Source: Asaia bogorensis
GTDB lineage: Bacteria > Pseudomonadota > Alphaproteobacteria > Acetobacterales > Acetobacteraceae
Direction: 5' to 3'
Length of the DNA: 45,998 nucleotides
Assembly (NCBI GenBank): GCA_945874805.1
Contig: CAMCJI010000002.1
Coordinates: forward strand, 1 to 45,998
The first letter of the stretch is position 1, and each line of letters opens with the position of its first letter. Positions 24,915 to 42,732 of the stretch are shown one piece after another. The position numbers were made by a program, and so were the translations under genes. The notes beneath the pieces were generated by a model. It had not been told where the DNA came from and ran no database searches. It saw only the letters and a program-made list of their open reading frames with translations.

Positions 24915-25883
24915 CTACTCCGCCGCGCCGCGCTGCTTGGCCAACTCCTGCGCCGCCCATTTGTCGTGATGCGCCTTCGCCCAGTTGACGTCCACGCGGC
25001 CGTTGCCCATGGCGTCGAACGCGCCCTCCATGCCAACCGAGCCGATATAGATATGGCCGAGAATGGCGGCGATCATCACCACGGACAGCGCCCCGTGGAT
25101 CACCTGCATCACCTGCATGCCGCCGATATCGGTCACCGTGAAGGGGAACATCAGCACGAACCCGGTCGCCGCGATCAACCCGCCGAAGCCGACGACGATC
25201 CAGAAGATCATCTTCTGCCCGCCGTTGAACCGGCCCGACGGCGGATGGCCCTTGCCGATCAACCCGCCGCCCTGGCGGAACCACTCCAGATCGATCTTGT
25301 TCGGGATGTTGTGGCGGATCCAGACCAGCAGCATCAGCACGATGCCCAAGGTGAAGGGGAACGCCATGTAGTTGTGGCTATACTTGGCGATCTGCGCGAA
25401 AGCGGCGAAGGCATCCGCCCCGATCAGCGGCATCAGCACCTTGGCCCCGATCGCCACATTCAGCCCCGAAATCGCCAGAACGATCCAGGACACCGCAACC
25501 AGCCAATGCATGAACCGCTCGAACCCGCCGAAGCGGGTCAGCGTCCGGCCAGACGGCCCGCCCTCGATCGGGATGCGCCCGCGGGTGAGATAAAAAAGCA
25601 CGAGCGCGACGGTGGTGCCGATGACGAAAATGCCGATCAGCCAAGGCAGTACGCCGCGATGGTAGTCGCGGTAGGCCTGCCCGTCGGGTTGGATGAGCAC
25701 CGCCGCCTTGCCGTCCGGAATGGTGATCGACCCCGTCACCGGCTTCAACGCGCCGAGCAACTGCTCCTCCGACACCGCGGAGGTGGTGGGATTGAAACCG
25801 GAAACCGGTGCCGGCGGCCGCGTCTGCGCGTCGGCCGCGCCGGCGATGAGAAGTGCCGCAAGAGCGAAAAGAAGAGCCCGCAT
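24915..25883 (-). CDS. fdoI: Formate dehydrogenase, cytochrome b556 (gamma) subunit
   Basis: This membrane subunit takes electrons from the beta subunit through two b hemes to quinone. The 322-residue protein begins with a cleavable signal peptide (MRALLFALAALLIAGAADAQ) and a periplasmic segment of about 70 residues, then five hydrophobic helices (for example LPWLIGIFVIGTTVALVLF, HWLVAVSWIVLAISGL, MAFPFTLGIVLMLLVWI). Histidines at helix ends (FMHWLV, YSHNYM, VIHGAL, LGHIYIG) are candidate heme ligands. It has the family motif IRHNIPNKIDLEWFRQGGG. The start at ATG 25883 overlaps the beta-subunit stop (TGATG); a longer frame to 25919 lies within that gene. Confidence 0.93.
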   Translation of the reverse strand: MRALLFALAALLIAGAADAQTRPPAPVSGFNPTTSAVSEEQLLGALKPVTGSITIPDGKAAVLIQPDGQAYRDYHRGVLPWLIGIFVIGTTVALVLFYLTRGRIPIEGGPSGRTLTRFGGFERFMHWLVAVSWIVLAISGLNVAIGAKVLMPLIGADAFAAFAQIAKYSHNYMAFPFTLGIVLMLLVWIRHNIPNKIDLEWFRQGGGLIGKGHPPSGRFNGGQKMIFWIVVGFGGLIAATGFVLMFPFTVTDIGGMQVMQVIHGALSVVMIAAILGHIYIGSVGMEGAFDAMGNGRVDVNWAKAHHDKWAAQELAKQRGAAE

Positions 25884-26482
25884 CAGACTTTCACCGTTTC
25901 CTTGTAGGCCGTTTTCCAACCCCAGGCGCCGGAGCCGTAGCCGCGCTTGAGCACGCGCTCACGATAGATCTGCGCCACCATGTCGCCATCGCCGGCGAGC
26001 AGCGACTTCGTCGAGCACATCTCGGCGCACAAGGGCAACTTGCCCTCGGCCATGCGGTTGGCGCCGTATTTGGCGAACTCCACCGCCGAGCCGTCCGCCC
26101 CTTCCGGGCCGCCCGAGCAATAGGTGCACTTGTCCATCTTGCCGCGGCTGCCGAAATTGCCGACGCGCGGATACTGCGGCGCGCCGAAAGGGCAGGCGTA
26201 GAAGCAGTAGCCGCAGCCGATGCAGAGGTCTTTGCTGTGCAGCACCACCCCGTCGGCGGTGGTGAAGAAGCAATCCACCGGGCAGACGGCCGCACAGGGC
26301 GCGTCCGTGCAGTGCATGCAGGCCATCGAAACCGAGCGCTCGCCCGGCTTGCCGTCGTTGATGGTCACCACGCGGCGGCGGTTGATGCCCCAGGGCACTT
26401 CGTTGGCGTTCTTGCAGGCGGTGACGCAGGCGTTGCACTCGATACAACGATCGGCGTCGCAGAGGAATTTGACGCGGGCCAT
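25883..26482 (-). CDS. fdoH: Formate dehydrogenase, iron-sulfur (beta) subunit
   Basis: This 199-residue ferredoxin-like subunit carries four 4Fe-4S clusters between the molybdopterin subunit and cytochrome b. Cysteine groups are visible: CIECNACVTACK (near residues 13-24), CMHCTDAPCAAVCPVDC, CIGCGYCFYACPFGAP, and CTYC with CAEMC. It is shorter than E. coli FdnH/FdoH because it lacks the C-terminal membrane helix, as in other alphaproteobacterial enzymes. It begins two bases after the alpha-subunit stop. Confidence 0.95.
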   Translation of the reverse strand: MARVKFLCDADRCIECNACVTACKNANEVPWGINRRRVVTINDGKPGERSVSMACMHCTDAPCAAVCPVDCFFTTADGVVLHSKDLCIGCGYCFYACPFGAPQYPRVGNFGSRGKMDKCTYCSGGPEGADGSAVEFAKYGANRMAEGKLPLCAEMCSTKSLLAGDGDMVAQIYRERVLKRGYGSGAWGWKTAYKETVKV

Positions 26483-26484
26483 TT

Positions 26485-29394
26485 CTATGCCGCCCCTTCA
26501 TTGGCTTTGGTGATCTGGCAGAGGGTGACCTTGGTTTCCTGCATGTAGGTCACCGGGTCGTAGCCATAGGTGGTCAGCGAGTTGACGCTCTCGCCCAGCA
26601 CGTAGGGATCGGTGCCGGCGGGGTAGTTTTTCCGCTGGTCAACGCCCTGGAACCAGCCGCCGAAGTGGAAGGGCATGAACGCCACACCCTTGCCGACGCG
26701 CTCGGTCAGCATCGCCTTCACCTTCGCCTTGCTACCGTTCTCCGGCCCGGTCACCCAGACCCACCCGCCGTCCTTGATGCCGCGTTCGGCCGCATCGGCG
26801 GGATTGATCTCCACGAACATGTCCTGCTGCAACTCGGCCAGCCAGGGGTTCGAGCGCGTCTCCTCGCCGCCGCCCTCGTATTCGACCAGCCGGCCCGACG
26901 TCAGCACGATCGGGAACGACTTAGCGGTGCCGGCATCCACCGCCTTTTTCTGCACGGTGCCGCCGATATTGGCCATGCGGAAGGCCTTATAGTCCGGCAG
27001 GGTCGGGTATTGCGCCACCAGATCGGGCCGTGAGGTATAGATCGGCTCACGGTGCACCGGCACGGGGTCGGGCAGGTTGAAGGCGTTGGCCCGCGCCTTG
27101 GCATTGCCGTAGGGCACAACCCCGTGGGCGATGCACACGCGCTGGATGCCGCCCGAAAGGTCGATCGCCCAGGACACGTTGTCCGGATTATTGCCGCCGA
27201 CCCGCCGTATCACCGCCATCTCGGCCTCGGTCAGTTCGCTGTCCCAGCCGAGCTTCTTCAGCACGCCGAGGGTGAATTCCGGATAGCCGTCCTTGATGTC
27301 CGAACCGAGCGAGAAGCTGCCTTCGGCCAGCAGGGTCTCGCCGTTGCGCTCCACGCCGAACCGGGCGCGGAACGTGCCGCCACCGTCCTTCACGTGCAAT
27401 GCCGTGTTGTAGAGCGTGTGCGTGCCGGGGTGCTTCTGCTCCGGCGTGCCCCAGCAGGGCCAGGGCAGACCGTAGTAATCGCCGGCCACCGAGCCTTCCT
27501 TGGCGCGCAGGCTGGTGATGTCGAACAGATGCTGGTTCGCCATATGCTCCTTCAACCGCTCCGGCGACTGGCCGGTATAGCCGGTGGACCAGGCGCCGCG
27601 GTTGATCTCGCGGGTGATATCTTCGGCAACCGGCTGCTTGCCCTCGACCTTGATGTTCTTGAACAGCTTGTCGGCGAAGCCGAGCTTCTCGGCGAGGCGA
27701 TACATCACCTCATAGTCGTCGCGGCTCTCCCAGATCGGCTTCACCACCTGCTCGGACCACTGGATCGAGCGGTTCGAGGCGGTGCGGCTGCCCGTCGTCT
27801 CGAACTGCGTGCAGATCGGCAGCAGATAGGTGCCGTTCTTGCGCTCGCTGATATGGGCGAAGGTGGTCGGATGCGGGTCCGCCACGACGAGCAGGTCGAG
27901 CTTCTCCAGGCCCTTCACCATCTCCGGCATGCGGGTGACGGTGTTGCCGCCATGGCCGAAGACCACCATGCCCTTGATGTTGTCGCGCTGGGCAAGCTGG
28001 TCCTTGGGCAGCAGCACGGCGTCGAACCAGCGGGTGGTGGGGATGCCGCTGGCCTCCATCATCGCCTTGCTGTCAAAACGCTCCTGAAGCCATTGATAAT
28101 CAACTTCCCACACCCGCGCCCAATGGCGCCAGGCGCCCTCGGCGAGGCCGTAGTAGTAGGGCAGCGAAGTGACATCGAGGCCGGCATCCGTCGCGCCCTG
28201 CACGTTGCAATGGCCGCGGAAGATGTTCGCGCCGTTGCCGAACCCGCCGACATTGCCGGTGGCCAGCAGCAGGATGCAGTAGGCGCGCACGTTGGCGGTG
28301 CCGACAGTCTTTTGCGTCGCACCCATGCACCAGATCAGCGTGGCCGGCTTCTGCCGCGCCATCATCTCGGCGACGCGCTTGAGCTCCTCGCCCTTGATGC
28401 CGGAGACGCGTTCCACCTCGGCCGGCGGCCACTTCGCCACCTCCTTGCGCACGTCCTCCATCCCATACACGCGCTGCTTGATGAAGTCCTTGTCCTCCCA
28501 GCCGTTCTGGAAGATGTGCCACAGCATGCCCCAGATCACCGGAATATCGGTGCCCGGACGCAGGCGCAGATAGTCGGTGGCGTGTGCGGCGGTGCGGGTG
28601 AAGCGGGGGTCGATCACCACGAGATTGGCGCGGTTGACCTCCTTGGCGACCATCAGGTGCTGGAGCGAGACCGGGTGCGCCTCGGCGGGGTTGCCGCCCA
28701 TCACCACCATGGTCTTGGAATTGCGGATGTCGTTATAGCTGTTGGTCATCGCGCCATAGCCCCAGGTGTTGGCAACACCCGCGACCGTGGTGGAGTGGCA
28801 GATGCGCGCCTGGTGGTCCACCGAGTTGGTGCCCCACATCGCCGCGAACTTGCGATACAGATAGGCGCCTTCGTTCGAGAACTTGGCGCTGCCGAGCCAG
28901 AACACGCTATCCGGCCCTGAATTCTTCCGTATTTCCAGCAACTTGTCGCCGATCTCTGAGATGGCGACATCCCAGGTGATCTTCTGCCACTGCCCGTTCA
29001 CCAGCTTCATGGGCGAGCGCAGGCGCCGCGTCCCCTTCACCAGTTCGCGCACGGCAGCACCCTTGGCGCAGTGGCTGCCACGGTTGATCGGGCTGTCGAA
29101 AGCGGGCTCCTGACGGATCCACACGTCGTTCTGCACCTCGGCGATCACTGTGCAGCCGACCGAGCAATGCGTGCAGATTGCCTTGATGCGCTTGATCGGC
29201 AGCTTCGGATCAACGGCGGCGGCCTCGGCCTTGCGGACGGCCCCCAGCGTCACCGCGGCGGCGCCAAGTGCGGCGGTGGCAAAGCCGGCGCGGCGCAGGA
29301 AGGCGCGCCGGTCGAGCGCGCCGGATGACAGCTCGCCGAGGACGGATTGCAGACGGGTCTTCTGGACCTGGGAGTCGCGGCGTTTGATCAACAT
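26485..29394 (-). CDS. fdoG: Formate dehydrogenase, molybdopterin (alpha) subunit
   Basis: This catalytic subunit oxidises formate to CO2 on a molybdenum or tungsten bis-pyranopterin. The 969-residue protein has a twin-arginine signal (DRRAFLRRAGF, residues about 28-38), so it is exported folded to the periplasm. The N-terminal 4Fe-4S motif is CTHCSVGC followed by HCAKG. The active-site residue is Cys199 (codon TGC at 28800-28798, in ARICHSTT), where E. coli FdnG has selenocysteine; His200 follows. GGNPAEAHPVS and the C-terminal molydopterin-binding barrel (GWVWVTGPENG) are present. GAGGG precedes ATG. The chaperone and Tat protein genes lie upstream in the same operon. Confidence 0.96.
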   Translation of the reverse strand: MLIKRRDSQVQKTRLQSVLGELSSGALDRRAFLRRAGFATAALGAAAVTLGAVRKAEAAAVDPKLPIKRIKAICTHCSVGCTVIAEVQNDVWIRQEPAFDSPINRGSHCAKGAAVRELVKGTRRLRSPMKLVNGQWQKITWDVAISEIGDKLLEIRKNSGPDSVFWLGSAKFSNEGAYLYRKFAAMWGTNSVDHQARICHSTTVAGVANTWGYGAMTNSYNDIRNSKTMVVMGGNPAEAHPVSLQHLMVAKEVNRANLVVIDPRFTRTAAHATDYLRLRPGTDIPVIWGMLWHIFQNGWEDKDFIKQRVYGMEDVRKEVAKWPPAEVERVSGIKGEELKRVAEMMARQKPATLIWCMGATQKTVGTANVRAYCILLLATGNVGGFGNGANIFRGHCNVQGATDAGLDVTSLPYYYGLAEGAWRHWARVWEVDYQWLQERFDSKAMMEASGIPTTRWFDAVLLPKDQLAQRDNIKGMVVFGHGGNTVTRMPEMVKGLEKLDLLVVADPHPTTFAHISERKNGTYLLPICTQFETTGSRTASNRSIQWSEQVVKPIWESRDDYEVMYRLAEKLGFADKLFKNIKVEGKQPVAEDITREINRGAWSTGYTGQSPERLKEHMANQHLFDITSLRAKEGSVAGDYYGLPWPCWGTPEQKHPGTHTLYNTALHVKDGGGTFRARFGVERNGETLLAEGSFSLGSDIKDGYPEFTLGVLKKLGWDSELTEAEMAVIRRVGGNNPDNVSWAIDLSGGIQRVCIAHGVVPYGNAKARANAFNLPDPVPVHREPIYTSRPDLVAQYPTLPDYKAFRMANIGGTVQKKAVDAGTAKSFPIVLTSGRLVEYEGGGEETRSNPWLAELQQDMFVEINPADAAERGIKDGGWVWVTGPENGSKAKVKAMLTERVGKGVAFMPFHFGGWFQGVDQRKNYPAGTDPYVLGESVNSLTTYGYDPVTYMQETKVTLCQITKANEGAA

Positions 29395-29404
29395 GGCAGG
29401 GCCC

Positions 29405-29605
29405 TCAGTACCGGTTCACGCGATAGAACTGCTTCACGTGCTCGTTTTCCTTGTATTGGCTGCCACCCTTGCCTGCCGGCGGCTTCATCGCCTCGGCCGG
29501 GGCGGTGCGGGTGGCCACGGCGACGGCCACGGCGGCCGTGCCCAAGCCGAGGCGTTTGAGCACGCGGCGGCGCAGGCTGGTTTCGGCGTCGGTCTTGTCG
29601 GTCAT
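29405..29605 (-). CDS. Small formate-dehydrogenase-region Tat-signal protein
   Basis: The protein of 66 residues has a twin-arginine-like signal (RRRVLKRLGLGTAAVAVAV...APAEA) and a short mature part ending YKENEHVKQFYRVNRY. It matches the known 'formate dehydrogenase region TAT target' family found beside fdoG in many proteobacteria; its function is not established. ATG 29605 has GGAGG eight bases upstream. An in-frame ATG at 29623 overlaps the stop of the chaperone gene (ATGA) and would give 72 residues. It ends ten bases before fdoG. Confidence 0.85.
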   Translation of the reverse strand: MTDKTDAETSLRRRVLKRLGLGTAAVAVAVATRTAPAEAMKPPAGKGGSQYKENEHVKQFYRVNRY

Positions 29606-29619
29606 CGCTTGGTCCTCCG

Positions 29620-30387
29620 TCATGCCGGCAGCGCGAAGGCTGCCTGCTCGATCTCAATCACGACGCGGCCGAGCTGCCCCAGCGCTGCATAGAGCGGGGC
29701 ATCGGTGACGCGTTCCAGGTCCTTGAAGAAGCCGCGCGCCCAGGGCTGCAAATGGCGCGCGAAGAAATGCCCGTCATCGAGGGCCAAGGCGCCCTCCCCG
29801 GCGCGTATCAGCCCGGCCATCGTCTCGCACAGGAAGGCGATATGGTCCTCAGGTTCGGCGATGCCGTCGCCACGTACCAGACCCATGCGATGCAGATCGG
29901 CACGAATCTCCGCCAGCGGGCGTTCATGCAAAAAGCCGGTCAGGTAGTAGGAGGCATAAGGCATCAGCTCGCCGCCGCCGACGCCGGTGAACAGGCGGAA
30001 ATGCGCCCGCTCCTCCTGCTCCGGCGAGGTTGCGCGCGCTGCCGCGGCCAGGGCGGCGCGGGCGGTGCCAAGGTCGGACGAGTCGCCCGGCAACTGCCCC
30101 AGCCTGGCCAGCAAAGCCGCATCCGGCGCCTGCCACATCAGGGCGGCCAGCAGCGCATAGGCATCCGCCCGGCCGGCAGAAACGGCGTCGAGCTCGGCCG
30201 CAGAGACCAGCGCGGATTCGGTGTAGAGGTCGGGGCGCAGCAGCGTTCGGGGGATACCGCTGGCCGCCTCGACCGACAGAACACGATCTGGCGGCACCCG
30301 GCGCCAAGCGGATACGGCCGGCTGCGACACACCGATCAGCCGGGCCAGGGCGCTGACGCCACCCACCACTGCTATCGCCTTGTCCAA
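29620..30387 (-). CDS. YdaS-type HTH / TorD-family chaperone fusion
   Basis: The protein joins two domains. Residues about 1-58 are a Cro-like helix-turn-helix of the YdaS type: GGVSALARLIGVSQPAVSAW, VPPDRVLSVEAASGIPR and the family ending LLRPDLY. The rest (about 70-255) is a TorD/DmsD-like helical chaperone (ADAYALLAALM, LLARLGQLPGDSSDL, YASYYLTGFLHERPL, EPEDHIAFLCETMAGLI, FFARHLQPWARGFFKDLE), which would bind the Tat signal and help cofactor loading of FdoG. No ATG exists in frame. I chose TTG 30387 (GGGA seven bases upstream); TTG 30405 and 30456 are alternatives, but 30456 lies upstream of the predicted -10 box. It is the first gene of the fdo operon. Confidence 0.85.
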   Translation of the reverse strand: MDKAIAVVGGVSALARLIGVSQPAVSAWRRVPPDRVLSVEAASGIPRTLLRPDLYTESALVSAAELDAVSAGRADAYALLAALMWQAPDAALLARLGQLPGDSSDLGTARAALAAAARATSPEQEERAHFRLFTGVGGGELMPYASYYLTGFLHERPLAEIRADLHRMGLVRGDGIAEPEDHIAFLCETMAGLIRAGEGALALDDGHFFARHLQPWARGFFKDLERVTDAPLYAALGQLGRVVIEIEQAAFALPA

Positions 30388-30445
30388 CGCCGCATCCCGC
30401 AAAGGCCGCCCCCCGAAGGCGGAGCTTGCCCCGCCACATTGGGCA

Positions 30446-30464
30446 CCATAAGACAAGCTTATGG
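30446..30464. promoter_or_regulatory. Palindromic operator candidate of the fdo operon
   Basis: CCATAAGACAAGCTTATGG has perfect seven-base arms (30446-30452, 30458-30464) around a five-base centre. It covers the predicted -10 box and part of the spacer of the fdo promoter, a position typical for repression. CAAGC also recurs 20 bases away (30454 and 30474). The HTH domain of the first operon gene is the obvious candidate regulator; binding is inference. Confidence 0.6.
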
Positions 30465-30506: not shown

Positions 30507-31535
30507 TCACGCCTTCCGGCGGCGGCGGGAGAGCACGCCAAGCCCGGCGAGCCCGGCGCCAAACAGCAGAGCCGATGCGGGTTCCGGCGCGTTGGCCAGC
30601 ACCAGGCCGCTCCAGGGATTCGCCCTGATCAGCGCCCCGTTGGCGGTGAAGAAAAGTTCGGTCGATGTGGTCGAGAGCGAGTTGGTCATGAACACGCCGC
30701 CATCCACGGTGCCCGCCACCGACATGGTGGTGTTGGGCGCCACGAAATAGCTGCCGACCGAGGTCTTGCCCGACCCGACGACGACGGTCGTGCCATCGGC
30801 CGCCACCACGATGACATTCGTCGCAACGGTCGAACCGGCCAGCGTAATCGAGCCCGCGGAGGTCATGCCGCCCTGGAGATAGACGAAGAAGTAGTTGCTC
30901 GCGCGCGTGCCGGACAGCACGAGATTGGTCGTCAGCGCCCCCGTCACCGTCACGGCGTTGTAGCCGTTGCGGCCGACGGAAACCGTGCCGCCCGTGCCGC
31001 CCGCCACCGTATGATCGGCAGTCAGGCCGGCAACCGTCGTACGAACGCCCTGCACCGCGGCGACGGCGGTGCTCATGTTGATCCCGGTCTTGTTGGCGTT
31101 CTCGCCGGTCAGCGCAGCCGGCGGCGTCGGCGTGCCGGTGGAGCGATAGACATCCTTATTGTAGGTCACGCCACCATTCGTGGCGTTGACCATGTTCGTC
31201 GTATCGCCGGTGCCACCAGCAATAAACCGCGAACCGACATTGTTGGCGTTGGCGGCGCCCAAGGCGACCGTTCCCTGGATCGTCGAAACGGTCGTTCCGG
31301 TGACATTCTGAATTCGGATCTGCGAATACTTCGTCGAGCTCAGGCCGCCCGCATAAACGGTGGCGCCCGCCGTGGTGATGACGTTGTTCACGTCGAACGC
31401 AGCGCCGACGCCGCCGGCTGCAAGCGAGCCGCCAAGCGAAAGCGCCTGCACGCTGGTATAAGCCACAGCCGACGCAACCGACGGCATCGCCATCGTCGCT
31501 GCCGCCATGCCAGCGAACAAACCAACCTTTTTCAT
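30507..31535 (-). CDS. Secreted choice-of-anchor A-like protein with PEP-CTERM anchor
   Basis: The 342-residue protein has a signal peptide (MKKVGLFAGMAAATMAMPSVASA) and a C-terminal PEP-CTERM anchor (APEPASALLFGAGLAGLG... then SRRRRKA). The mature part is rich in Thr, Val, Gly and Asn. Residues about 230-310 (TNVIVVAADGTTVVVGSG, GSYFVAPNTTMSVAGTVDGGVF) resemble the beta-helical 'choice-of-anchor A' adhesin-like domain; I base this on pattern memory. The next in-frame ATG upstream (31556) has no ribosome-binding site, and a frame running to 32003 enters the DUF3306 gene, so ATG 31535 is preferred. It interrupts the formate dehydrogenase island between its two minus-strand operons and has its own promoter-like sequence. 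Confidence 0.82.
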   Translation of the reverse strand: MKKVGLFAGMAAATMAMPSVASAVAYTSVQALSLGGSLAAGGVGAAFDVNNVITTAGATVYAGGLSSTKYSQIRIQNVTGTTVSTIQGTVALGAANANNVGSRFIAGGTGDTTNMVNATNGGVTYNKDVYRSTGTPTPPAALTGENANKTGINMSTAVAAVQGVRTTVAGLTADHTVAGGTGGTVSVGRNGYNAVTVTGALTTNLVLSGTRASNYFFVYLQGGMTSAGSITLAGSTVATNVIVVAADGTTVVVGSGKTSVGSYFVAPNTTMSVAGTVDGGVFMTNSLSTTSTELFFTANGALIRANPWSGLVLANAPEPASALLFGAGLAGLGVLSRRRRKA

Positions 31536-31749: not shown

Positions 31750-32244
31750 CTAGACCGGGGCCGCGCCCCCCCCGCGCCGCCGTGGCGGCGGCCCGGATTC
31801 GGGCACCGGGGCCGGCAGCGCCGCCGGCGTCGGCGGCGTCTCGGCCGGGCCCGCCACGACGACCGGCGCCGCCTCCTCCACCGGCAGTTCCGGCTCGCGC
31901 GGCGCCGTTCCCAGCGCGCGTTGCAGCAGGTCCGCCACATTGTCGATCGCCTGCAACGGCCCGTAGAACGGTGCCCCGCCCGGCGTGTTCCAGTCCCACG
32001 CATAATCCGCCAGGCCGACGAAACCGCGAATGCCCGGGTCGGTCACCCAGATGCGCCGCAGCGCCGCCGTCTTCCACGCCTCCGGCACCCGGCGCTTCAG
32101 CCAGGGGCCGATCTCATCGAGACCCAGCGAGTCCAGTATCGGCGGCTCCTCCATCGGCGGCTCCGGCACGGGTGCGGGCGCCACCGCTTCCGGCACGCCG
32201 CGCTTGCGGCGGGACCAGCGGGCGGCAAAGCCTTCCTCACTCAT
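31750..32244 (-). CDS. DUF3306 family protein
   Basis: The 164-residue protein starts with the basic FAARWSRRKR segment typical of DUF3306. It continues with a Pro/Glu-rich linker, the conserved core (SLGLDEIGPWLKRRVPEAWKTAALRRIWVTDPGIRGFVGLADYAWDWN pattern, about residues 39-86), and a Pro/Ala-rich C-terminal tail. Proteins of this family are encoded with formate dehydrogenase genes in many alpha- and betaproteobacteria; their role is unknown. It overlaps the DUF3305 gene by eight bases and is last in its operon. Confidence 0.88.
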   Translation of the reverse strand: MSEEGFAARWSRRKRGVPEAVAPAPVPEPPMEEPPILDSLGLDEIGPWLKRRVPEAWKTAALRRIWVTDPGIRGFVGLADYAWDWNTPGGAPFYGPLQAIDNVADLLQRALGTAPREPELPVEEAAPVVVAGPAETPPTPAALPAPVPESGPPPRRRGGGAAPV

Positions 32245-32719
32245 CCTCGTCGTCCTCCGGCGTCCAGTTCCGGCGCTTGCGCTTCAGGAACGGCCGCTCC
32301 ACGTGATGCTCCGCCACGAAGGCGGCGACGAAGGCCGCGATCTCCGCCGGCATCGGCACCGATTCGACGATATCGTCCCCCGCCTCGGTGAACGACTCCC
32401 CCTCCGCCGGATCGGCCGTCACGCCCACGATGGCCAGCGGCACCGGCCCCTCGCCCAGCCGCGCGCAAACCCACATGCGCGGCGTGCCGGTGGCGAGATT
32501 GTCGCGGTAGGTCGCGGTGTCCGTCCGGTGCAACGCCATCTCCCACGCCCCGGCGTAAAACCGCTCCGCCGGCCCGTCGCTGCCCAGCGCGGTCCCGGGC
32601 GCGGCATCCGGCAGGCCCGCCAGCACGGCCACCGGCCGCCACAGCGCATCCGCCCAGCGGGTGACGGCCTGCCGCCGCTCCACCACCACGCCGACCATCA
32701 TGCTGGCGGTCGCACTCAT
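32237..32719 (-). CDS. DUF3305 family protein
   Basis: The 160-residue cytoplasmic protein shows the DUF3305 pattern: VGVVVERR...TRWADALWRPVAVL near the start, WEMALHRTDTATYRDNL (about 59-75) and PRMWVCAR. The C-terminus is charged (FLKRKRRNWTPEDDEDE). It is a formate-dehydrogenase-linked family of unknown function. Its start overlaps the stop of the DUF6352 gene (ATGA), indicating coupled translation and perhaps a complex. Confidence 0.88.
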   Translation of the reverse strand: MSATASMMVGVVVERRQAVTRWADALWRPVAVLAGLPDAAPGTALGSDGPAERFYAGAWEMALHRTDTATYRDNLATGTPRMWVCARLGEGPVPLAIVGVTADPAEGESFTEAGDDIVESVPMPAEIAAFVAAFVAEHHVERPFLKRKRRNWTPEDDEDE

Positions 32720-33690
32720 GCGTCCGCCCGCAGCGGCAGCCCGGCCAGCAGGTTCTGCGGTTTGATCCGCACCACCCGCTCCCCGTCCATCGCCAGCAGC
32801 AGGCTGACCTCCTCGGCCAGGCCGGGGGCGGTGAGGCGATACAGCGCGAGCAGATTATCGGCCTCCGCCGGCGCCTCGCCCTGCCACAGGGCGTTGCCGA
32901 TGCGCGTGGCATGGGCGTCCAGCCCGACGAACCACCGCCAGTCCCGCGTCTCGATCCGCGCCACCGGCTCGATGGTGGCGGCGAGGCCCAGCAGATGCGC
33001 GAGCCACAGCCGGATCACCTCGGCCAGCGCCGCCCGGGCCGCCGCGAGGTCGAGCACCATGTCGTGTGAATCGCTGCGTCCCCAGTAGGATGCGGCATTC
33101 TCCTCGTTCAACACATCAAATTCGGTCGCCGCCGGCGGCGCGAGCATCGCAATCAGCGGCACCGCCTGCCGGCGCTGCTCCGCCGCCTCCACCGCCTCCG
33201 CATCGGCCAGCAGCACCCGCCCCTGATGCACGGTCGCCCGCTGCGGGCGGAAGAACATCTCCCCCGCCCGCACCACCATCGCGTCCTCGCAGGCGTCCAG
33301 CGCATTGCGCAGGATGACATGCGTCAACTGCGCGAAGATCAGCGGCGGTATCCGCCCCACCCCATCGCGCACCATGCCGAGATAGGCGGCCTCGATGCTG
33401 GGGGCGGCGAGCAGCCGGGCGCGCAGCTCCAGAAACACCTCCCAGTTCTCCCGCGCATCCGCATCCGCGATGGCCGCGACTTCGGCGGGCGCCACCGCGC
33501 GCAGGGGCTCATCGAACAGGCTGGCATGCAAAGCGCGCTCGGCATCGCACGCCTCCTCTGGCGGCAGCAGCTCGGGGCGGGCGAGATAGGCGCGGAACAG
33601 ATCGCCGGTGGCCACCAGCAGCCCCCGCGCGTCCCGGTCGAGCAGCAGATGGCCGGAGCCGACCCAGAATTCATGGCCGCGCCGGGTCAT
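32716..33690 (-). CDS. DUF6352 family protein
   Basis: The 324-residue protein begins HEFWVGSGHLLLDRD and GLLVATGDLFRAYLARPEL, the pattern I associate with DUF6352, a family found only beside formate dehydrogenase genes. The sequence is mixed helical, without signal peptide, membrane segment or cysteine motif. Its function is not known. It is coupled by ATGA overlaps at both ends (DUF6505 upstream, DUF3305 downstream). Confidence 0.82.
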   Translation of the reverse strand: MTRRGHEFWVGSGHLLLDRDARGLLVATGDLFRAYLARPELLPPEEACDAERALHASLFDEPLRAVAPAEVAAIADADARENWEVFLELRARLLAAPSIEAAYLGMVRDGVGRIPPLIFAQLTHVILRNALDACEDAMVVRAGEMFFRPQRATVHQGRVLLADAEAVEAAEQRRQAVPLIAMLAPPAATEFDVLNEENAASYWGRSDSHDMVLDLAAARAALAEVIRLWLAHLLGLAATIEPVARIETRDWRWFVGLDAHATRIGNALWQGEAPAEADNLLALYRLTAPGLAEEVSLLLAMDGERVVRIKPQNLLAGLPLRADA

Positions 33691-34208
33691 GCCAGCCCCC
33701 CCAACTGCCGCAGATCGACCGCGTCAGGCTCCGGATCGTCCTCGCGCACCAGGGCGAACACCGGCGCGGGCCGGTCGGCGCGGGCGGAGAGGCTGCGGAA
33801 CCGCTCGCGGATCTCGCCCCCCTCCAGGCTGCGATGCAGGGCGATGACGGTGCCCAGCGGCAGATCGGCCACCGAGGCGGCGAAGGCCAGCTCATCGGCC
33901 GCCGCGGCCTCGGCGCTGGCCGCATCCGGCGCGCCGTGGGCCTCGCACAGATGCGCGGCCAGGGCGGCGAGGGCCGCGGCGTGTTCGGCGGGGCTGGCCT
34001 CGGCCACCTCCACCAGCGTCGAAAACCCGAAGCTGCCCAGGCCGAGAAAGCCGGAACGAAACCCCACCAGCGCCTTGCGCGGCAGGGTCGCGGGGTCCGC
34101 GCCATGGAAGGCGAACCCGCCCGGCACCGCCCATTCCCCCGGCTCGGCCGCGCGCTCGAACACGAAGCGGTCGGAGGGGTCGAGGCGAAGGGTGCGCGGC
34201 AGCCTCAT
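33687..34208 (-). CDS. DUF6505 family protein
   Basis: The 173-residue protein starts LPRTLRLDPSDRFVFERAAEPGEWAVPGGFAF-like, with FRSGFLGLGSFGFSTLVEV in the middle, the pattern I associate with DUF6505. No catalytic motif is visible. Its function is unknown and known members occur with formate dehydrogenase clusters. ATGA overlaps link it to the ligase-like gene upstream and DUF6352 downstream. Confidence 0.82.
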   Translation of the reverse strand: MRLPRTLRLDPSDRFVFERAAEPGEWAVPGGFAFHGADPATLPRKALVGFRSGFLGLGSFGFSTLVEVAEASPAEHAAALAALAAHLCEAHGAPDAASAEAAAADELAFAASVADLPLGTVIALHRSLEGGEIRERFRSLSARADRPAPVFALVREDDPEPDAVDLRQLGGLA

Positions 34209-34858
34209 GCGCGTATCCCCCCGCTGACCGGATCACGCCAGGACGGTGCTGCCTGCAACGCGGCGAGATCGGCCGGATCAGCCGGGCCGTGGCCATCCCA
34301 GCGCTCCCGCCAGCGCGCCAGCACGGCGGCGGGCCCGCGCGCGGACCAGTCGTCCAGCGCCAGCATCAGATGCCGCGCGTAGCTCTCGACGAAGCCGCCG
34401 GTATCGAAATCGGGAAAGCCCTCATCGCCCAAGGCAGCCGGCGGTGCCGCTCCGGGCACCCCGTCGGCCCAGACGCGCAAGGCGAGACCGAGCACCAGCC
34501 ACTCCGGCACCGCATCTTCCGGGCAGTCCACCGGCCAGCCGAGCCTGACCCCGCCGACCAGCCCATTGTCATAGAACAGCGCATCCGGCCAGCGGAACAC
34601 CAGCGGCTTCTCCGGCGGGCAATCGACCGCCAGCGCATCCGCCGCGGCGTTCAGCCCGGCACATGCGACCTGGCGCGCGACGGCCAGGCGCTGCGCCGGT
34701 TCCAGCACCACGGCGCAATCGACGATATCGGCACGGCGCACCCATACCAGCGTGCCGGCCCCCTCCTCCGGCGCCAGCGCGCTGGCGGCTGCGAACGCGT
34801 CCGCCCCTTCGGGCAGGGCGACGAGCGAGTAGGGCGGCGGCAGGTCGAGGGTCGTCAT
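34205..34858 (-). CDS. Biotin/lipoate protein ligase-like protein without catalytic lysine
   Basis: The 217-residue protein has the biotin/lipoate A/B ligase fold in pattern: a substrate-loop region (SALAPEEGAGTLVWVRR, residues 26-42), VDCAVVLEP, the equivalent of KWPND (RWPDA, 89-93) and of RKLAGI (NGLVGGV, 98-104). The lysine that activates the carboxylate in BirA/LplA is Leu100 here, so normal ligation is doubtful. Members of this group are encoded in formate dehydrogenase islands. ATG 34858 is preferred; GTG 34870 adds four residues. It heads a five-gene coupled operon and is divergent from the polyferredoxin with 65 bases between, a region that contains AT-rich TATATGG on the plus strand but no clear promoter pair. 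Confidence 0.8.
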   Translation of the reverse strand: MTTLDLPPPYSLVALPEGADAFAAASALAPEEGAGTLVWVRRADIVDCAVVLEPAQRLAVARQVACAGLNAAADALAVDCPPEKPLVFRWPDALFYDNGLVGGVRLGWPVDCPEDAVPEWLVLGLALRVWADGVPGAAPPAALGDEGFPDFDTGGFVESYARHLMLALDDWSARGPAAVLARWRERWDGHGPADPADLAALQAAPSWRDPVSGGIRA

Positions 34859-34923: not shown

Positions 34924-36915
34924 ATGCCGAGCCTGGACCCGCACACCGGAAACCGAATCGTCTTCGCCTGCTCCTGCGAGGACACGATGCGCCTGGACGC
35001 GCGCGCCCTGCGCGCCGCCGGCGGCGAGGTGCGGGAATGCAGCTTCCTCTGCCGCACCGAGGTCGGCCGCTTCCGCGCGGCCCTCGCCGAGGGCCGCCCG
35101 ATCACCGTCGGCTGCACCCAGGAAGCCCCGCTGTTCCAGGAAATCGCCGAGGAGGCCGGATTCGCCCCATCGCTGGTCTTCGCCAATATCCGCGAGGCCG
35201 CCGGCTGGTCCGACGAGGGCAGCCGCGCCGGGCCGAAAATGGCCGCGATACTGGCCGCCGCCGCGGTGCCGATGCCCGCCACCCCCCTGGTCTCCCTGAC
35301 CAGCGAGGGCATCGCCCTAATCTACGGCCGCGACGAAGTCGCCATCGCGCTGGGCCGCGAACTGGCCGAGGCGCTGGACGTCACCGTGCTGCTCAGCCGC
35401 CCCGGCGAGGTGACCCCCCCGGCCAGCGGCGCCTTCCCCGTGCTGCGCGGCACGATCACCGCCGCGCGCGGCCATCTCGGCGCCTTCGAACTGACGGTCG
35501 GCGACTACGCCCGCCCCTCCCCCGCCTCACGCGCCCGGCTGCTCTGGGGCGAGCCGCGGGACGGCGCGGTCTCCCGCTGCGACATCCTCATCGACATCTC
35601 CGGCAACCCGCCGCTGTTCCCGGCCTGGGAGACGCGGCCCGGCTATCTCCGCGCCGACCCCGCCCGGCCGGAGACCATCGCCCGCGCCGTGCTGGAGGCC
35701 TCCCGCCTCGTCGGCACCTTCGACAAGCCGCGCTACGTCGATTTCCACGAAGGGCTGTGCGCCCACAGCCGCAGCCGGCGCACCGGCTGCACCCGCTGCC
35801 TGGACCTGTGCCCCACCGGCGCGATCAGCCCAGCCGGCGATCACGTGGCGATCGACGCCGCGATCTGTGCCGGCTGCGGCGCCTGTGCTGCCGTCTGCCC
35901 GACGGGGGCTGCCACCTACGCCCTCCCGCCCGCCGATGCCGTGCTGCGCCGGGTCCGGGCGCTGCTGATGGCCTACACCGATGCCGGCGGCAAAGCCCCA
36001 GTGCTGCTGCTGCATGACGAGGCGCACGGCCAGGCGATGATCGATGCCGCCGCCCGGCACGGGCGCGGCCTGCCGGCGCATGTGCTGCCGCTGCGGCTGA
36101 ACGAAGCAACCCAGGCGGGGCTGGACCTGATCGCCGGCGCCTTCGCCTATGGCGTGGCCGGCATCACCTTCCTGCTGCGCGGCCGCCCCGCGCATCCGCC
36201 GGACGGGCTTCACCGCACCGTCGCCCTGGGCAACGCCATCCTCGCCGGCCTCGGCCTGGGCGCCACCCGCTGCACCGTGCTGGAATCCGACGACCCCGAC
36301 GCGCTCTCCGCCCTGCCCGCCCTGCCCCCCGGCGTCACCGGCCCCAGCCGCTTCCTGCCGATGGGCGAAGGCCGCGCCCTGACGCTCGCCGCCCTGAAGG
36401 AGTTGCACCGCGTTGCCGGCGCCCCCGCCGCCGCCATCGCGCTGCCAGATGGCGCGCCGTTCGGCGGCCTCGATATCGACGCCGCCGGCTGCACCCTCTG
36501 CCACGCCTGCGTCGCCGCCTGCCCGACAGGTGCATTGCGTTCCGACGCCGACAAGCCGGCCCTGCGCTTCGCCGAAGATGCCTGCGTGCAATGCGGCCTC
36601 TGCCGCGCCACCTGCCCGGAGAAGGTGATCGCGCTGGCCCCGCGCCTCGCACCCGCCGCCTGGACCGCCGCCCCGCTGACGATCAAGGAGGAGGAGCCCT
36701 TCCCCTGCATCGTCTGCGCCAAGCCCTTCGGCACCCGCAGCAGCATCGAGCGCATCGCCGCCAAACTGGCAGCGAGCCACTGGATGTTCACCGGCCCGAA
36801 CGCCAAGCGCATCGACGTGGTGCGCATGTGTGAGGACTGCCGCGTGGAGGCGGTCATGAACGAGAGCTTCGATCCCCACGACGCCCCGCCCCGCCCGCCC
36901 CCGCGCGTGGGATGA
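34924..36915 (+). CDS. 4Fe-4S polyferredoxin-like protein of the formate dehydrogenase island
   Basis: The 663-residue protein has an N-terminal region resembling the HdrA/CoB-CoM-type 'FACSCEDT' domain (VFACSCEDTM at 13-22, SFLCRTEVG, VGCTQEAPLFQE), then two ferredoxin modules: CTRCLDLCPTG with CAGCGACAAVCPTG (about residues 287-325), and CTLCHACVAACPTG with CVQCGLCRATCPEK (about 523-570), so four 4Fe-4S clusters. A C-terminal CIVCAKPFG / CEDCR group suggests one further metal site. It has no signal peptide, so it is cytoplasmic. It may pass electrons to or from formate metabolism or serve in maturation. The stop lies five bases from the convergent OmpA-like gene. Confidence 0.88.
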   Translation: MPSLDPHTGNRIVFACSCEDTMRLDARALRAAGGEVRECSFLCRTEVGRFRAALAEGRPITVGCTQEAPLFQEIAEEAGFAPSLVFANIREAAGWSDEGSRAGPKMAAILAAAAVPMPATPLVSLTSEGIALIYGRDEVAIALGRELAEALDVTVLLSRPGEVTPPASGAFPVLRGTITAARGHLGAFELTVGDYARPSPASRARLLWGEPRDGAVSRCDILIDISGNPPLFPAWETRPGYLRADPARPETIARAVLEASRLVGTFDKPRYVDFHEGLCAHSRSRRTGCTRCLDLCPTGAISPAGDHVAIDAAICAGCGACAAVCPTGAATYALPPADAVLRRVRALLMAYTDAGGKAPVLLLHDEAHGQAMIDAAARHGRGLPAHVLPLRLNEATQAGLDLIAGAFAYGVAGITFLLRGRPAHPPDGLHRTVALGNAILAGLGLGATRCTVLESDDPDALSALPALPPGVTGPSRFLPMGEGRALTLAALKELHRVAGAPAAAIALPDGAPFGGLDIDAAGCTLCHACVAACPTGALRSDADKPALRFAEDACVQCGLCRATCPEKVIALAPRLAPAAWTAAPLTIKEEEPFPCIVCAKPFGTRSSIERIAAKLAASHWMFTGPNAKRIDVVRMCEDCRVEAVMNESFDPHDAPPRPPPRVG

Positions 36916-36920
36916 ACGCA

Positions 36921-37502
36921 TCAGTCCAGCCGGGTGACCTGCACCCGGCGGTTGACCGGCGCGGTCGGCGCGGACGCGTCGTACAGCTGCGACCGGCCGA
37001 AGCCCACGGCCGTCAGCCGCGCCGCCGGAACGCCCGCGCGCTCGATCAAATAGCTGCGCGCCGCTTCCGCCCGCCGCTCGGACAGCTTGAGGTTGTAGTC
37101 GGCGCTGCCCGACGCATCGGTATGCCCGCCGATCTCGAACCGGGCCACGGCCAGCGCCGGGTCCTTCAACGCCGCGCCAAGTGCGTCAAGTGCCCGGGTG
37201 CCGGCCGGGGTCAGATCGGCCGAGTCGTAGCCGAAGGGCACCAGCAGGTTCACGGTCGCACCCGCCGGGCGCGCCGCGGCCGGCCGGGCGGCAGCGCTCG
37301 TCGCGGCCGACGGCGCGGACTGCACCGTGGGCCGGATGCCGCGGGTGGTGGAATCCGCCCCCGGCTTGAGGCAATCGATGATGCTGGCCGTCGCCAGTTG
37401 CCCGGCACAGGGGTCTGCCGCGAGGGCCGGCCCGGCAGAGACGGCAAGCACGGCGGCAGCAGCGGCGATGGATGCGGCAAGGCCGCGCGCGAGTGGCAGC
37501 AT
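36921..37502 (-). CDS. OmpA-family peptidoglycan-associated protein
   Basis: The 193-residue protein has a signal peptide (LAASIAAAAAVLAVSAGPALA, just after the start) and a C-terminal OmpA-like domain (about 85-193) with GHTDASGSADYNLKLSERRA (about 135-154) and RRVQVTRL at the end. The aspartate and arginine in those motifs bind meso-diaminopimelate. The short middle part is Ala/Pro-rich; there is no beta-barrel and the signal peptide has no lipobox, so it is probably a periplasmic wall-binding protein. It has a 183-base divergent gap with the next gene. Confidence 0.9.
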   Translation of the reverse strand: MLPLARGLAASIAAAAAVLAVSAGPALAADPCAGQLATASIIDCLKPGADSTTRGIRPTVQSAPSAATSAAARPAAARPAGATVNLLVPFGYDSADLTPAGTRALDALGAALKDPALAVARFEIGGHTDASGSADYNLKLSERRAEAARSYLIERAGVPAARLTAVGFGRSQLYDASAPTAPVNRRVQVTRLD

Positions 37503-37685: not shown

Positions 37686-38903
37686 ATGCATATGAAGATC
37701 ATTGGCCATGTCGATCGCTGCGACAACCAGTACATCGAAGGCTGGCTGTTCTGCCCGGAGCAGCCCGACGCCGAATTCGCCCTGCAGATCTTCGCCGGCA
37801 CCGACGTGATCGGTGAGGTCCGCGCCGACATCCACCGCCCCGACCTCGAAGCCGCCGGGTACGGCAATGGCCGCTGCGCCTTCTCCTGGGTGGTGCCGGA
37901 ATTCCTGCCCCCCAACGCCATCCAAAACATCCGCCTGCGCCTGATCGGCAGCGACGTCTATATGGTGCCTCCGGCCACCTTCGCGCCGGCCGAACAGAAG
38001 GATGCCTTCTCCAGCCGCTTCGGCGGCCTGTGGATCGACCGCGCCAACTGGATCGATACGCTTGCCGAAAAGCACCGCCGCGGCCAGATCGACGACGACA
38101 TGGCTGGCCAGCTGTTCCGCTTCGTACGCGACGGCTTCCTGGTCATCCCCAATGCGGTGCCGCCGCGCATGATCGCCGCCCTGAACGATGAGATCGACCG
38201 GTTCTGGAACCGCCCGCCCGAAGGCATGCTGATCGAAACCTTCGAGCCGGACGATGTGATGAAATACATCGCCCCGGACATGCGCATGCGCGACGGGCGC
38301 ACCAAGCTGCTCGACATCTTCGCCCATTCCGAAGTCGCCCGCCGCGTCACCGCCGCGATGGCGCCGATGAAGTTCCTCTCCACCCTGTTCGACGAAACCC
38401 CCAAGGTCATCCAGCAGCTGGCCTTCTGGAAGGGCACCCAGCAGCCCAAGGCGAAGGACAGCGCCTACGTCAAGATCGACTCCAACCCGCTGGCCATGGC
38501 CGTCAGCTGGCTGGCGCTGGAGGACATCACCCCTGGCACCGGTGAGGCCGAATACTTCGTCGGCAGCCACCGCGCGCCGGACTTCCTGTTCGGCGGCGTC
38601 AGCAAATGGGCCGAGACCTTCGGCGAAGACCATCCCCGCTTCCTCGCCAGCATCGAGGAGGATGCGGTGAAGTACGGCCACCGCCGCGCCTCGTTCCTGG
38701 CGCGCGCCGGGGACATGCTGATCTTCCACGCCGACCTCGCGCATGGCAGCGCCCGCATCACCCGCCCGAACGCCACGCGGCGCAGCCTCGTCACACACTT
38801 CACGCCGAACTCGGAACAGCCGTTCTACCGCCGCTTCTCCAACCACACCGAGCTGAAGATGCCCACCTGCGTCTTCGTCTCGCAATACGGCCCGGTGAAG
38901 TAG
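37686..38903 (+). CDS. Phytanoyl-CoA dioxygenase-like protein with an N-terminal accessory domain
   Basis: The 405-residue protein has two parts. Residues 1-95 (GHVDRCDNQYIEGWLFC...) form a small beta domain often seen attached to surface-glycan enzymes. Residues about 145-390 resemble phytanoyl-CoA dioxygenases (DGFLVIPNAVP, VSWLALEDITPGTGEAEYF, GSHR, DLAHGSARITRP). In Fe(II)/2-oxoglutarate enzymes the HxD motif precedes the SWIALED block; here it reads A256-K-D258, so the first iron-binding His is absent, while D258, His353 (LAHGS) and an arginine remain. Activity may be lost or changed. ATG 37686 has GGAG five bases upstream; ATG 37692 is possible. A 16-pair terminator follows 18 bases after the stop. 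Confidence 0.8.
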   Translation: MHMKIIGHVDRCDNQYIEGWLFCPEQPDAEFALQIFAGTDVIGEVRADIHRPDLEAAGYGNGRCAFSWVVPEFLPPNAIQNIRLRLIGSDVYMVPPATFAPAEQKDAFSSRFGGLWIDRANWIDTLAEKHRRGQIDDDMAGQLFRFVRDGFLVIPNAVPPRMIAALNDEIDRFWNRPPEGMLIETFEPDDVMKYIAPDMRMRDGRTKLLDIFAHSEVARRVTAAMAPMKFLSTLFDETPKVIQQLAFWKGTQQPKAKDSAYVKIDSNPLAMAVSWLALEDITPGTGEAEYFVGSHRAPDFLFGGVSKWAETFGEDHPRFLASIEEDAVKYGHRRASFLARAGDMLIFHADLAHGSARITRPNATRRSLVTHFTPNSEQPFYRRFSNHTELKMPTCVFVSQYGPVK

Positions 38904-38976: not shown

Positions 38977-39765
38977 TCAGCCGGCCGCCACAACCGCCCG
39001 CTTGGTGATCACGCCGATCAGATGCGCGCGATACTCGGCGCTGGCGTGGATGTCGCTGTTCAGGCCATCGGCCGAAGCCTTCACACCCGCGAGCGCGTCA
39101 GCCGACCAGTTGGCGGCAAGTGCTGCCTCGGCGGCGGTGTGGCGAAACACCCCGCCCTGCCCGGCACCTGTGACGGCAACGCGCGTGCCGGCCGGGCCCT
39201 TGGCCACGAACACGCCGACCATCGCATAACGCGAAGCCGGGTTCTTGAACTTCACATAGGCGGCCTTGCCCGGGATCGGGAAGGAGACCGAGGTGATGAT
39301 CTCATCGGCGGCCAGCACCGTGGTGAACATGCCGTCGAAGAACTGATCGGCGGCGATGCTGCGCTTGTTGGTGGTGATCGTCGCCCCCAGGGCCAGCACG
39401 GCCGACGGATAGCAGGCCGACGGGTCGTTGTTGGCCAGGCTGCCACCGATCGTGCCGCGGTTGCGGACCTGGTTATCGCCGATGCCGCCGGCGAGTGCCG
39501 CCAGCGCCGGAATGGCGCGCTTCACGTCGGCCGAGTTGGCGACGGTGGCATGCGTGGTCATCGCCCCGATCACCACGGCGCTGTCGGTGACGGTGATGCC
39601 GGACAGGCCGAGCTTGGCCAGGGCAACCACCGTTTCCGGCTTGTTCAGCCGCTGCTTCAGCACCGGGATCAGGGTCTGCCCGCCGGCCAGCGCCTTGGCG
39701 TCACCCGCGAGGGCGGCCACGGCATCGGCGACGGTTGTGGGGCTTTTGAAAGCGAAATCGTACAT
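38977..39765 (-). CDS. coxM: Molybdenum hydroxylase FAD-binding (medium) subunit
   Basis: This 262-residue FAD subunit of the xanthine oxidase/CO dehydrogenase family takes electrons from the 2Fe-2S subunit. The FAD sites are AGGQTLIPVLKQRL (residues about 27-40) and TIGGSLANNDPSACYPSAVL (about 104-123). GAGGG lies nine bases upstream of ATG 39765. A much longer in-frame extension (to 40245) lies inside coxL and is rejected. The gene order S-L-M differs from the M-S-L order of classical cox operons. Confidence 0.92.
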   Translation of the reverse strand: MYDFAFKSPTTVADAVAALAGDAKALAGGQTLIPVLKQRLNKPETVVALAKLGLSGITVTDSAVVIGAMTTHATVANSADVKRAIPALAALAGGIGDNQVRNRGTIGGSLANNDPSACYPSAVLALGATITTNKRSIAADQFFDGMFTTVLAADEIITSVSFPIPGKAAYVKFKNPASRYAMVGVFVAKGPAGTRVAVTGAGQGGVFRHTAAEAALAANWSADALAGVKASADGLNSDIHASAEYRAHLIGVITKRAVVAAG

Positions 39766-39785
39766 GTGTTGTCCCTCGCGGATGC

Positions 39786-42167: not shown

Positions 42168-42246
42168 GGAGGTCCACCCTGATGCTTATTTGCCCGTGGA
42201 CCCGGCGCGGACGATACCGCACCGGTCGTCCCGGGCATTTTCCGTT

Positions 42247-42732
<486 letters not shown>

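Follow-up and report, generated by a model that had tools for sequence, protein, structure and literature searches.

A candidate maturation module for FDH3-type formate dehydrogenases in Asaia bogorensis

Gene set and enzyme at the Asaia locus

We analysed a stretch of 45,998 nucleotides of Asaia bogorensis DNA (contig CAMCJI010000002.1; hereafter the window), in which five open reading frames (ORFs), each with an ATG start, occupy positions 31750-34858 of the minus strand and overlap successively by 4, 4, 4 and 8 bp. A profile scan of the window proteins placed all five families above their Pfam cut-offs, and the gene of a polyferredoxin (PFD) runs divergently from the five across a gap of 65 bp. 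ORF coordinates and Pfam assignments thus confirm the layout described in a first-pass annotation made from the sequence alone, that of five overlapping minus-strand genes with a divergent polyferredoxin. Gene content across genomes divides the set into a core of DUF3305, DUF3306 and PFD and an optional add-on (the ligase-like protein, DUF6505 and DUF6352).

34205..34858, minus strand: ligase-like protein, 217 aa (BPL_LplA_LipB_2, PF16917; Pfam 2.6e-45)
33687..34208, minus strand: DUF6505, 173 aa (Pfam 4.4e-50)
32716..33690, minus strand: DUF6352, 324 aa (Pfam 1.7e-54)
32237..32719, minus strand: DUF3305, core, 160 aa (Pfam 1.7e-39)
31750..32244, minus strand: DUF3306, core, 164 aa (Pfam 2.4e-11)
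34924..36915, plus strand: polyferredoxin PFD, core, 663 residues

Downstream of DUF3306 follow, in this order, a PEP-CTERM gene, a torD-like gene, a TAT-target gene and fdhA, fdhB and fdhC, the genes of a formate dehydrogenase (FDH). The window FdhB passes the FDH3_beta equivalog, which makes the enzyme FDH3-type.

29620..30456, minus strand: TorD/DmsD-like chaperone (Pfam Nitrate_red_del 2.8e-26, YdaS 4.3e-13)
29405..29623, minus strand: small 'formate dehydrogenase region TAT target' protein (TIGR02811, 5e-12; 46.0 bits, slightly under the cut-off of 48.45)
26485..29394, minus strand: FdhA, catalytic subunit, Cys-type (TIGR01591, 1.2e-135, below the equivalog cut-off)
25883..26482, minus strand: FdhB (NF038355 FDH3_beta, 330 bits; cut-off 240)
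24915..25919, minus strand: FdhC, membrane subunit, start codon uncertain (named from its position and from homologous loci)

Hydropathy exceeds 1.6 in 54/54 members of the FdhC set. The window FdhA has a RICHS motif from residue 195 and an N-terminus of the twin-arginine translocation (Tat) type. Across the loci compared, R.CHS, which we take to be the Cys-His active-site motif of the FDH alpha subunit, and the Tat-type N-terminal motif, presumably a Tat signal, were each present in 56/56, and because FdhA bears the latter throughout, mature FDH3 should be exported. The helper proteins carry no export signal recognised by sequence view and hydropathy (the latter being ambiguous for PFD) and appear to be cytosolic.

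Distribution, layout and protein features

We surveyed 219 Pseudomonadota genomes by profile searches with family cut-offs. FDH3_beta exceeded its cut-off in 36 of them, with scores falling on two clear sides (314.7 bits for the lowest above the cut-off, 99.5 for the next below), and DUF3305 and DUF3306 each exceeded theirs in the identical 36 genomes. PFD, for which the middle domain was sought in 80 genomes, was found in 36/36 FDH3-positive and 0/44 FDH3-negative genomes, the latter hand-picked from the 183 negatives. DUF6505 and a strong class of ligase-like hits (separated from generic hits between 95.9 and 58.4 bits, a cut chosen after the list had been seen) shared the same 20/219 genomes, and DUF6352 occurred in 14/219, all of these genomes being FDH3-positive; nine genomes have DUF6505 but no DUF6352, and three (G019, G175, G194) have DUF6352 but no DUF6505. 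The first-pass annotation had tied these genes to formate dehydrogenase, and the co-occurrence check found DUF3305, DUF3306, DUF6505 and DUF6352 never without FDH3 among the 219 genomes, so that the frequent occurrence without formate dehydrogenase that would speak against the bond was not seen. By this genomic distribution, the gene set is tied to one formate-dehydrogenase clade, FDH3, a stronger link than had been claimed.

The 36 FDH3 genomes cover 24 genera and 13 families, and hypergeometric figures for the co-occurrence ignore kinship and are not to be read as probabilities. Six families hold both states (f1, f2, f12, f30, f38, f53), as do single genera: the set is present in G028 and G143 and absent from G137 and G155 of genus g9, and present in G175 and absent from G142 of genus g110. 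Presence and absence inside one genus therefore imply joint gain or loss of the set. DUF3305 and DUF3306 were found in 0/14 control genomes, E. coli included; E. coli has classic FDHs, which therefore work without them. Nor does the association depend on physical linkage. The genes lie scattered in G016 (fdhB and DUF3305 at about 1.27 Mb, PFD at 1.237 Mb, DUF6352 at 1.55 Mb, DUF6505 at 1.65 Mb and the ligase-like hit at 2.14 Mb), and DUF6352 is confined to FDH3 genomes even when unlinked (G016, G019, G175, G194). FDH3 was likewise present in 9/9 Azospirillum genomes with a free-standing DUF6352 and in the three other genomes searched with them, where the genes are linked (12/12 in total).

We compared the layout in 56 relative loci found via DUF6352, which hence give no independent evidence of linkage for DUF6352 itself, plus the window's own region, with gene starts set by a heuristic. 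Overlaps were found between the ligase-like gene and DUF6505 in 38/45 loci, DUF6505 and DUF6352 in 36/47, DUF6352 and DUF3305 in 32/46, and DUF3305 and DUF3306 in 39/44 (window included in each). The four-base overlaps suggest translational coupling, and are no proof of fixed stoichiometry. In 20 regions with distant FDH3 loci, the ligase-like-DUF6505 pair often stands apart from DUF3305-DUF3306, on the opposite strand, or is missing; DUF6352 is free-standing in Azospirillum; and in several genomes DUF3305-DUF3306, ligase-like-DUF6505 and DUF6352 form separate transcription units. The 'strict stoichiometric expression' of one complex read from the overlaps at first pass does not survive this comparison: the set splits, with the ligase-like-DUF6505 pair in 20/36 and DUF6352 in 14/36 FDH3 genomes, and G200 has two FDH3_beta genes with one set of DUF3305, DUF3306 and PFD. 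A single five-protein complex of fixed ratio was dropped as a candidate in view of the core, the optional parts and their separate transcription units. As G174 similarly pairs two FDH3_beta genes with a single PFD, assembly factors fit better than subunits. Plasmid records with DUF3305 relatives numbered 88, from Pseudosulfitobacter, Sulfitobacter, Azospirillum, Sinorhizobium and Bradyrhizobium among others, and the module may therefore move between replicons.

Genes of cofactor assembly lie near the core in other genomes. The window DUF3305 matches positions 217-364 of 382 in NF011058 ('MobA, DUF3305 domain-containing'; 4.6e-28), a MobA-DUF3305 family curated by NCBI; the match covers only the DUF3305 part, and the MobA domain is absent from the window protein. 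MobA immediately precedes DUF3305-DUF3306 and shares their strand in 4 of 20 MobA regions (L096, L097, L098, L106) that were picked partly for their promising look and not at random. In 6/6 loci examined that have a short PFD (L075-L078, L082, L087), DUF3305 has FdhD as its divergent neighbour; MobA and MoeA also lie near the core genes in L077, and L082 has MobA together with a tungstate-binding protein of the TupA type (255 bits, below the equivalog cut-off of 400). The first-pass annotation had proposed 'a maturation or electron-delivery apparatus', and these neighbours favour the maturation half of that proposal. An NF011058 search of 289 genomes of the window's class gave, among the matches listed, two hits spanning MobA and DUF3305 (G405, G325); both are two genes split by a stop, leaving no fused gene among those matches. 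The long open frame of the L081 DUF3305 was likewise rejected as a MobA fusion, its upstream part being unlike MobA on reading, with no family scan run.

In PFD an HdrA-like N-domain is joined to a weakly MvhD/FlpD-like middle and a pair of dicluster ferredoxin modules, with conserved Cys pairs (595/598/636/639) making up a C-terminal CxxC...CxxC. It was found to share with methanogen HdrA the N-terminal domain (alignment to HdrA residues 50-162, 8e-6) and the C-terminal-type ferredoxin module. In contrast to HdrA, the window protein reads YGRDEVA in place of the glycine motif of the flavin adenine dinucleotide (FAD) site in the alignment view; the alignment ends shortly past it, and the rest of the HdrA flavin domain was not seen. 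The middle matches methanogen MvhD below significance (E 0.11) and FlpD in 2/29 members (best 0.05), and the C-terminal end matches ferredoxins of the formate-hydrogenlyase (HycF) type. Short members from L075, L076, L077, L082 and L087 lack the HdrA-like N-domain, and that of L078 is short by ORF length; these six loci are the same ones in which FdhD diverges from DUF3305.

The AlphaFold2 model of DUF3305 is a predicted compact, soluble alpha/beta domain (pLDDT 94.9), and that of DUF6352, a family with strikingly conserved motifs (35 invariant columns among 38 sequences), reaches a pLDDT of 93.5. Foldseek found no PDB match at E <= 0.001 for either, and a second look with VIA gave Z 2.9 for DUF3305 (3.4 Å, 82 aligned) and Z 5.7 for DUF6352 (6.6 Å, 80 aligned), both within the range of unrelated models. 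Profile searches against PDB sequences gave no match for DUF3305 and no meaningful match for DUF6352 or DUF6505. The missing fold matches do not make the DUF3305 and DUF6352 folds new. DUF3306 has a conserved N-terminal RWSRRK-like motif and a central Y..D motif, the remainder being variable, and a strongly hydrophobic 19-residue stretch is absent from 67/68 DUF3306 and 63/70 DUF3305 sequences.

The ligase-like protein belongs by its PF16917 match to the BPL/LplA fold family, and a search of PDB sequences returned the solved homologue 3bfm (8.3e-66), described as a 'biotin protein ligase-like protein of unknown function', and BirA (4.3e-4). At the column of BirA K183, placed from the BirA match and presumably that of the catalytic lysine, Lys occurs in 0/53 aligned sequences. 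The GRGxxR motif, which we take to be the adenylate loop of biotin/lipoate ligases, is absent at its place in this alignment, the pattern occurring in 1/53 sequences and off position (residue 178 of L042). Because Lys is missing from the K183 column in 53/53, we regard the protein as a probable pseudo-ligase.

A proposed role in maturation

We propose, with a probability of about 0.62, that these genes form a cytosolic module dedicated to the maturation of FDH3, a clade of Mo/W formate dehydrogenases that are exported by Tat and bound to the membrane. The proposal is based on the exact co-occurrence of DUF3305, DUF3306 and PFD with FDH3 and on the proximity of MobA, FdhD, MoeA and TupA elsewhere, together with the Tat motif of FdhA, the loss of the ligase lysine and the soluble predicted fold of DUF3305. 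Its parts differ in strength: a role in maturation as such is quite probable, action at the cofactor step instead of another maturation step is slightly favoured, and PFD as the provider of electrons for sulfuration is a tentative suggestion with the odds against it.

In outline, MobA would make bis-molybdopterin guanine dinucleotide (bis-MGD), DUF3305 and DUF3306 would help pass it from MobA to FdhD and the TorD-like chaperone so that it can be inserted into FdhA, and FdhD would install the sulfido ligand. PFD would supply electrons at this step, most plausibly by reducing bis-MGD so that FdhD can add the ligand. The ligase-like protein, DUF6505 and DUF6352 would be an optional add-on, with the dead ligase fold acting as a binding or scaffold protein. 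The TorD-like chaperone would keep FdhA until export, and the loaded FdhA-FdhB would leave by Tat and then join FdhC. This mechanism is plausible, and we infer its steps beyond co-occurrence and neighbourhood. For the R. capsulatus enzyme, the available part of one study reports that sulfuration by sulfide does not work unless a reductant is present, and that reduced bis-MGD alone accepts sulfide (PMC12140954). PFD suggests itself as a candidate for such a reductant. A fuller version, in which PFD with its HdrA-, MvhD- and HycF-like parts is the in vivo reductant passing low-potential electrons to bis-MGD on DUF3305-DUF3306-FdhD for sulfido insertion ahead of Tat export, with the dead ligase as scaffold in alphaproteobacteria, is a shade more doubtful again. 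CO2-converting formate dehydrogenases are hard to produce, cofactor loading and sulfuration being difficult; the core trio, present with every FDH3 member sampled and adjoining MobA and FdhD in other genomes, probably comprises the factors still lacking when these enzymes are made in foreign hosts, and PFD is a specific candidate for what delivers the electrons in reductive sulfuration.

Several observations weigh against a maturation module. Strict co-occurrence would also fit an unrecognised subunit or regulator, and neither the DUF3305 nor the DUF6352 model has a convincing fold match that would point to an active site or ligand. Hydropathy is ambiguous for PFD (38/66 members above 1.6), and the MobA regions were not picked at random. 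Neither MobA nor FdhD is adjacent in the window, MobA lying on another contig, and a search of open-licence PubMed Central literature found no mutant, interaction or biochemical data for these proteins.

FlpD and HdrA act as an electron-transfer arm with methanogen formate dehydrogenase, and PFD with some of the DUF proteins could be such an arm, the enzyme reducing PFD and PFD feeding cytosolic acceptors. The HdrA-like N-domain, weakly MvhD/FlpD-like middle and HycF-type C-terminal end of PFD would all suit this, as would a link to FDH3 as strict as that of the enzyme itself. However, the Tat-type FdhA and the membrane partner FdhC point to a periplasmic enzyme, whereas PFD has no recognised export signal, and in both G174 and G200 a single PFD is matched by two FDH3_beta genes; we consider an arm of this kind unlikely, and with it the 'electron delivery' of the first-pass annotation in the sense of a respiratory partner. 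Somewhat less likely still is a set that assembles Fe-S clusters or folds FdhA and FdhB instead of handling the Mo/W cofactor, for while PFD has many conserved Cys pairs and FDH3 has several Fe-S clusters, the known neighbours are the cofactor genes MobA, FdhD, MoeA and TupA (isc/suf-type neighbours were not searched for). Much of our evidence is gene neighbourhood, as conserved neighbours sharing no function would also produce, but such hitch-hiking is very improbable given that the co-occurrence survives without linkage in G016 and Azospirillum and holds inside the families with both states. An active lipoate, biotin or octanoate transferase modifying a component of the system, for which clear family membership and the solved relative 3bfm might speak, is the least credible reading, given the missing lysine and adenylate loop and the lack of any lipoyl or biotinyl domain in nine proteins scanned.

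Known systems and further observations

The studies of FdhD/FdsC and of the MoeA1-MobB-MobA pathway reportedly concern enzymes of another FDH type. This pathway, whose MobA and FdhD adjoin core genes in other genomes here, also serves a Mo/W-bis-MGD formate dehydrogenase, and the available parts of its two papers leave the present proteins unmentioned, that on the tungsten pathway (PMC13197769) being without the term 'DUF' (PMC13197769, PMC12140954). In a 2015 paper, the legend of an operon figure and the text name DUF3305, DUF3306, fer4 and fdh-tat among the genes of DmsD/TorD-linked fdhGHI operons and place the two DUF genes upstream of DmsD-linked fdhGHI (PMC4464133). It terms both DUFs putative membrane proteins, whereas most members here lack a strongly hydrophobic stretch, and its available portions neither assign them a function nor contain a test of co-occurrence or a link to MobA or FdhD. 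The description of the apparatus as 'not yet described' is thus partly overtaken, by the earlier report of DUF3305 and DUF3306 in fdh operons. Searches of open-licence PubMed Central, judged by titles and abstract starts, found none of the five proteins functionally studied. Within that collection the 2015 paper is the one relevant to DUF3305/DUF3306, no mention of DUF6352 or DUF6505 and no relevant paper on 3bfm were found, and a methylotroph paper, in the part available, covers fdh3 expression only (PMC12445348).

The order in L078 (FdhD, DUF3305, DUF3306, PFD, TorD, TAT, FdhA, FdhB) equals that of the Shewanella oneidensis MR-1 fdh locus, given in the available parts of three papers as SO4503 (FdhD), the hypotheticals SO4504 and SO4505, SO4506 (an Fe-S protein), SO4507 (FdhT), SO4508, SO4509 (FdhA) and SO4510 (FdhB) (PMC2535785, PMC3623810, PMC5826389). 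From their position we infer that SO4504 and SO4505 are DUF3305 and DUF3306. In the portions at hand, one regulator mutant shows a decrease of SO4504-SO4506 as well as of SO4509 (PMC2535785), and SO_4506, 4507, 4509 and 4510 shift together in a RyhB data set (PMC5826389). Unlike the window, L078 is without the ligase-like protein, DUF6505 and DUF6352, and PFD of its type is without the HdrA-like N-domain of the window PFD (as seen in L075-L077, L082 and L087).

A scan of the region for promoters and terminators gave no signal beyond chance. At its N-terminus the TorD-like chaperone (29620-30456) has a YdaS/Cro-like DNA-binding domain, matched by YdaS in 12/37 TorD homologues scanned, which may couple maturation state with transcription. 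The PEP-CTERM-tailed protein gene (30507-31535, minus strand) separates DUF3306 from torD in the window; because the spacing between the two is -212 to 261 bp in 40 other loci, too small for such a gene, the insertion is a peculiarity of this genome. A few kb past the polyferredoxin lies a second molybdoenzyme cluster, of xanthine/CO dehydrogenase type (38977-42732, minus strand; large, FAD and 2Fe-2S subunits), and between the two molybdoenzyme clusters are genes for an OmpA-family protein (36921-37502, minus strand) and a phytanoyl-CoA dioxygenase-like protein (37686-38903, plus strand).

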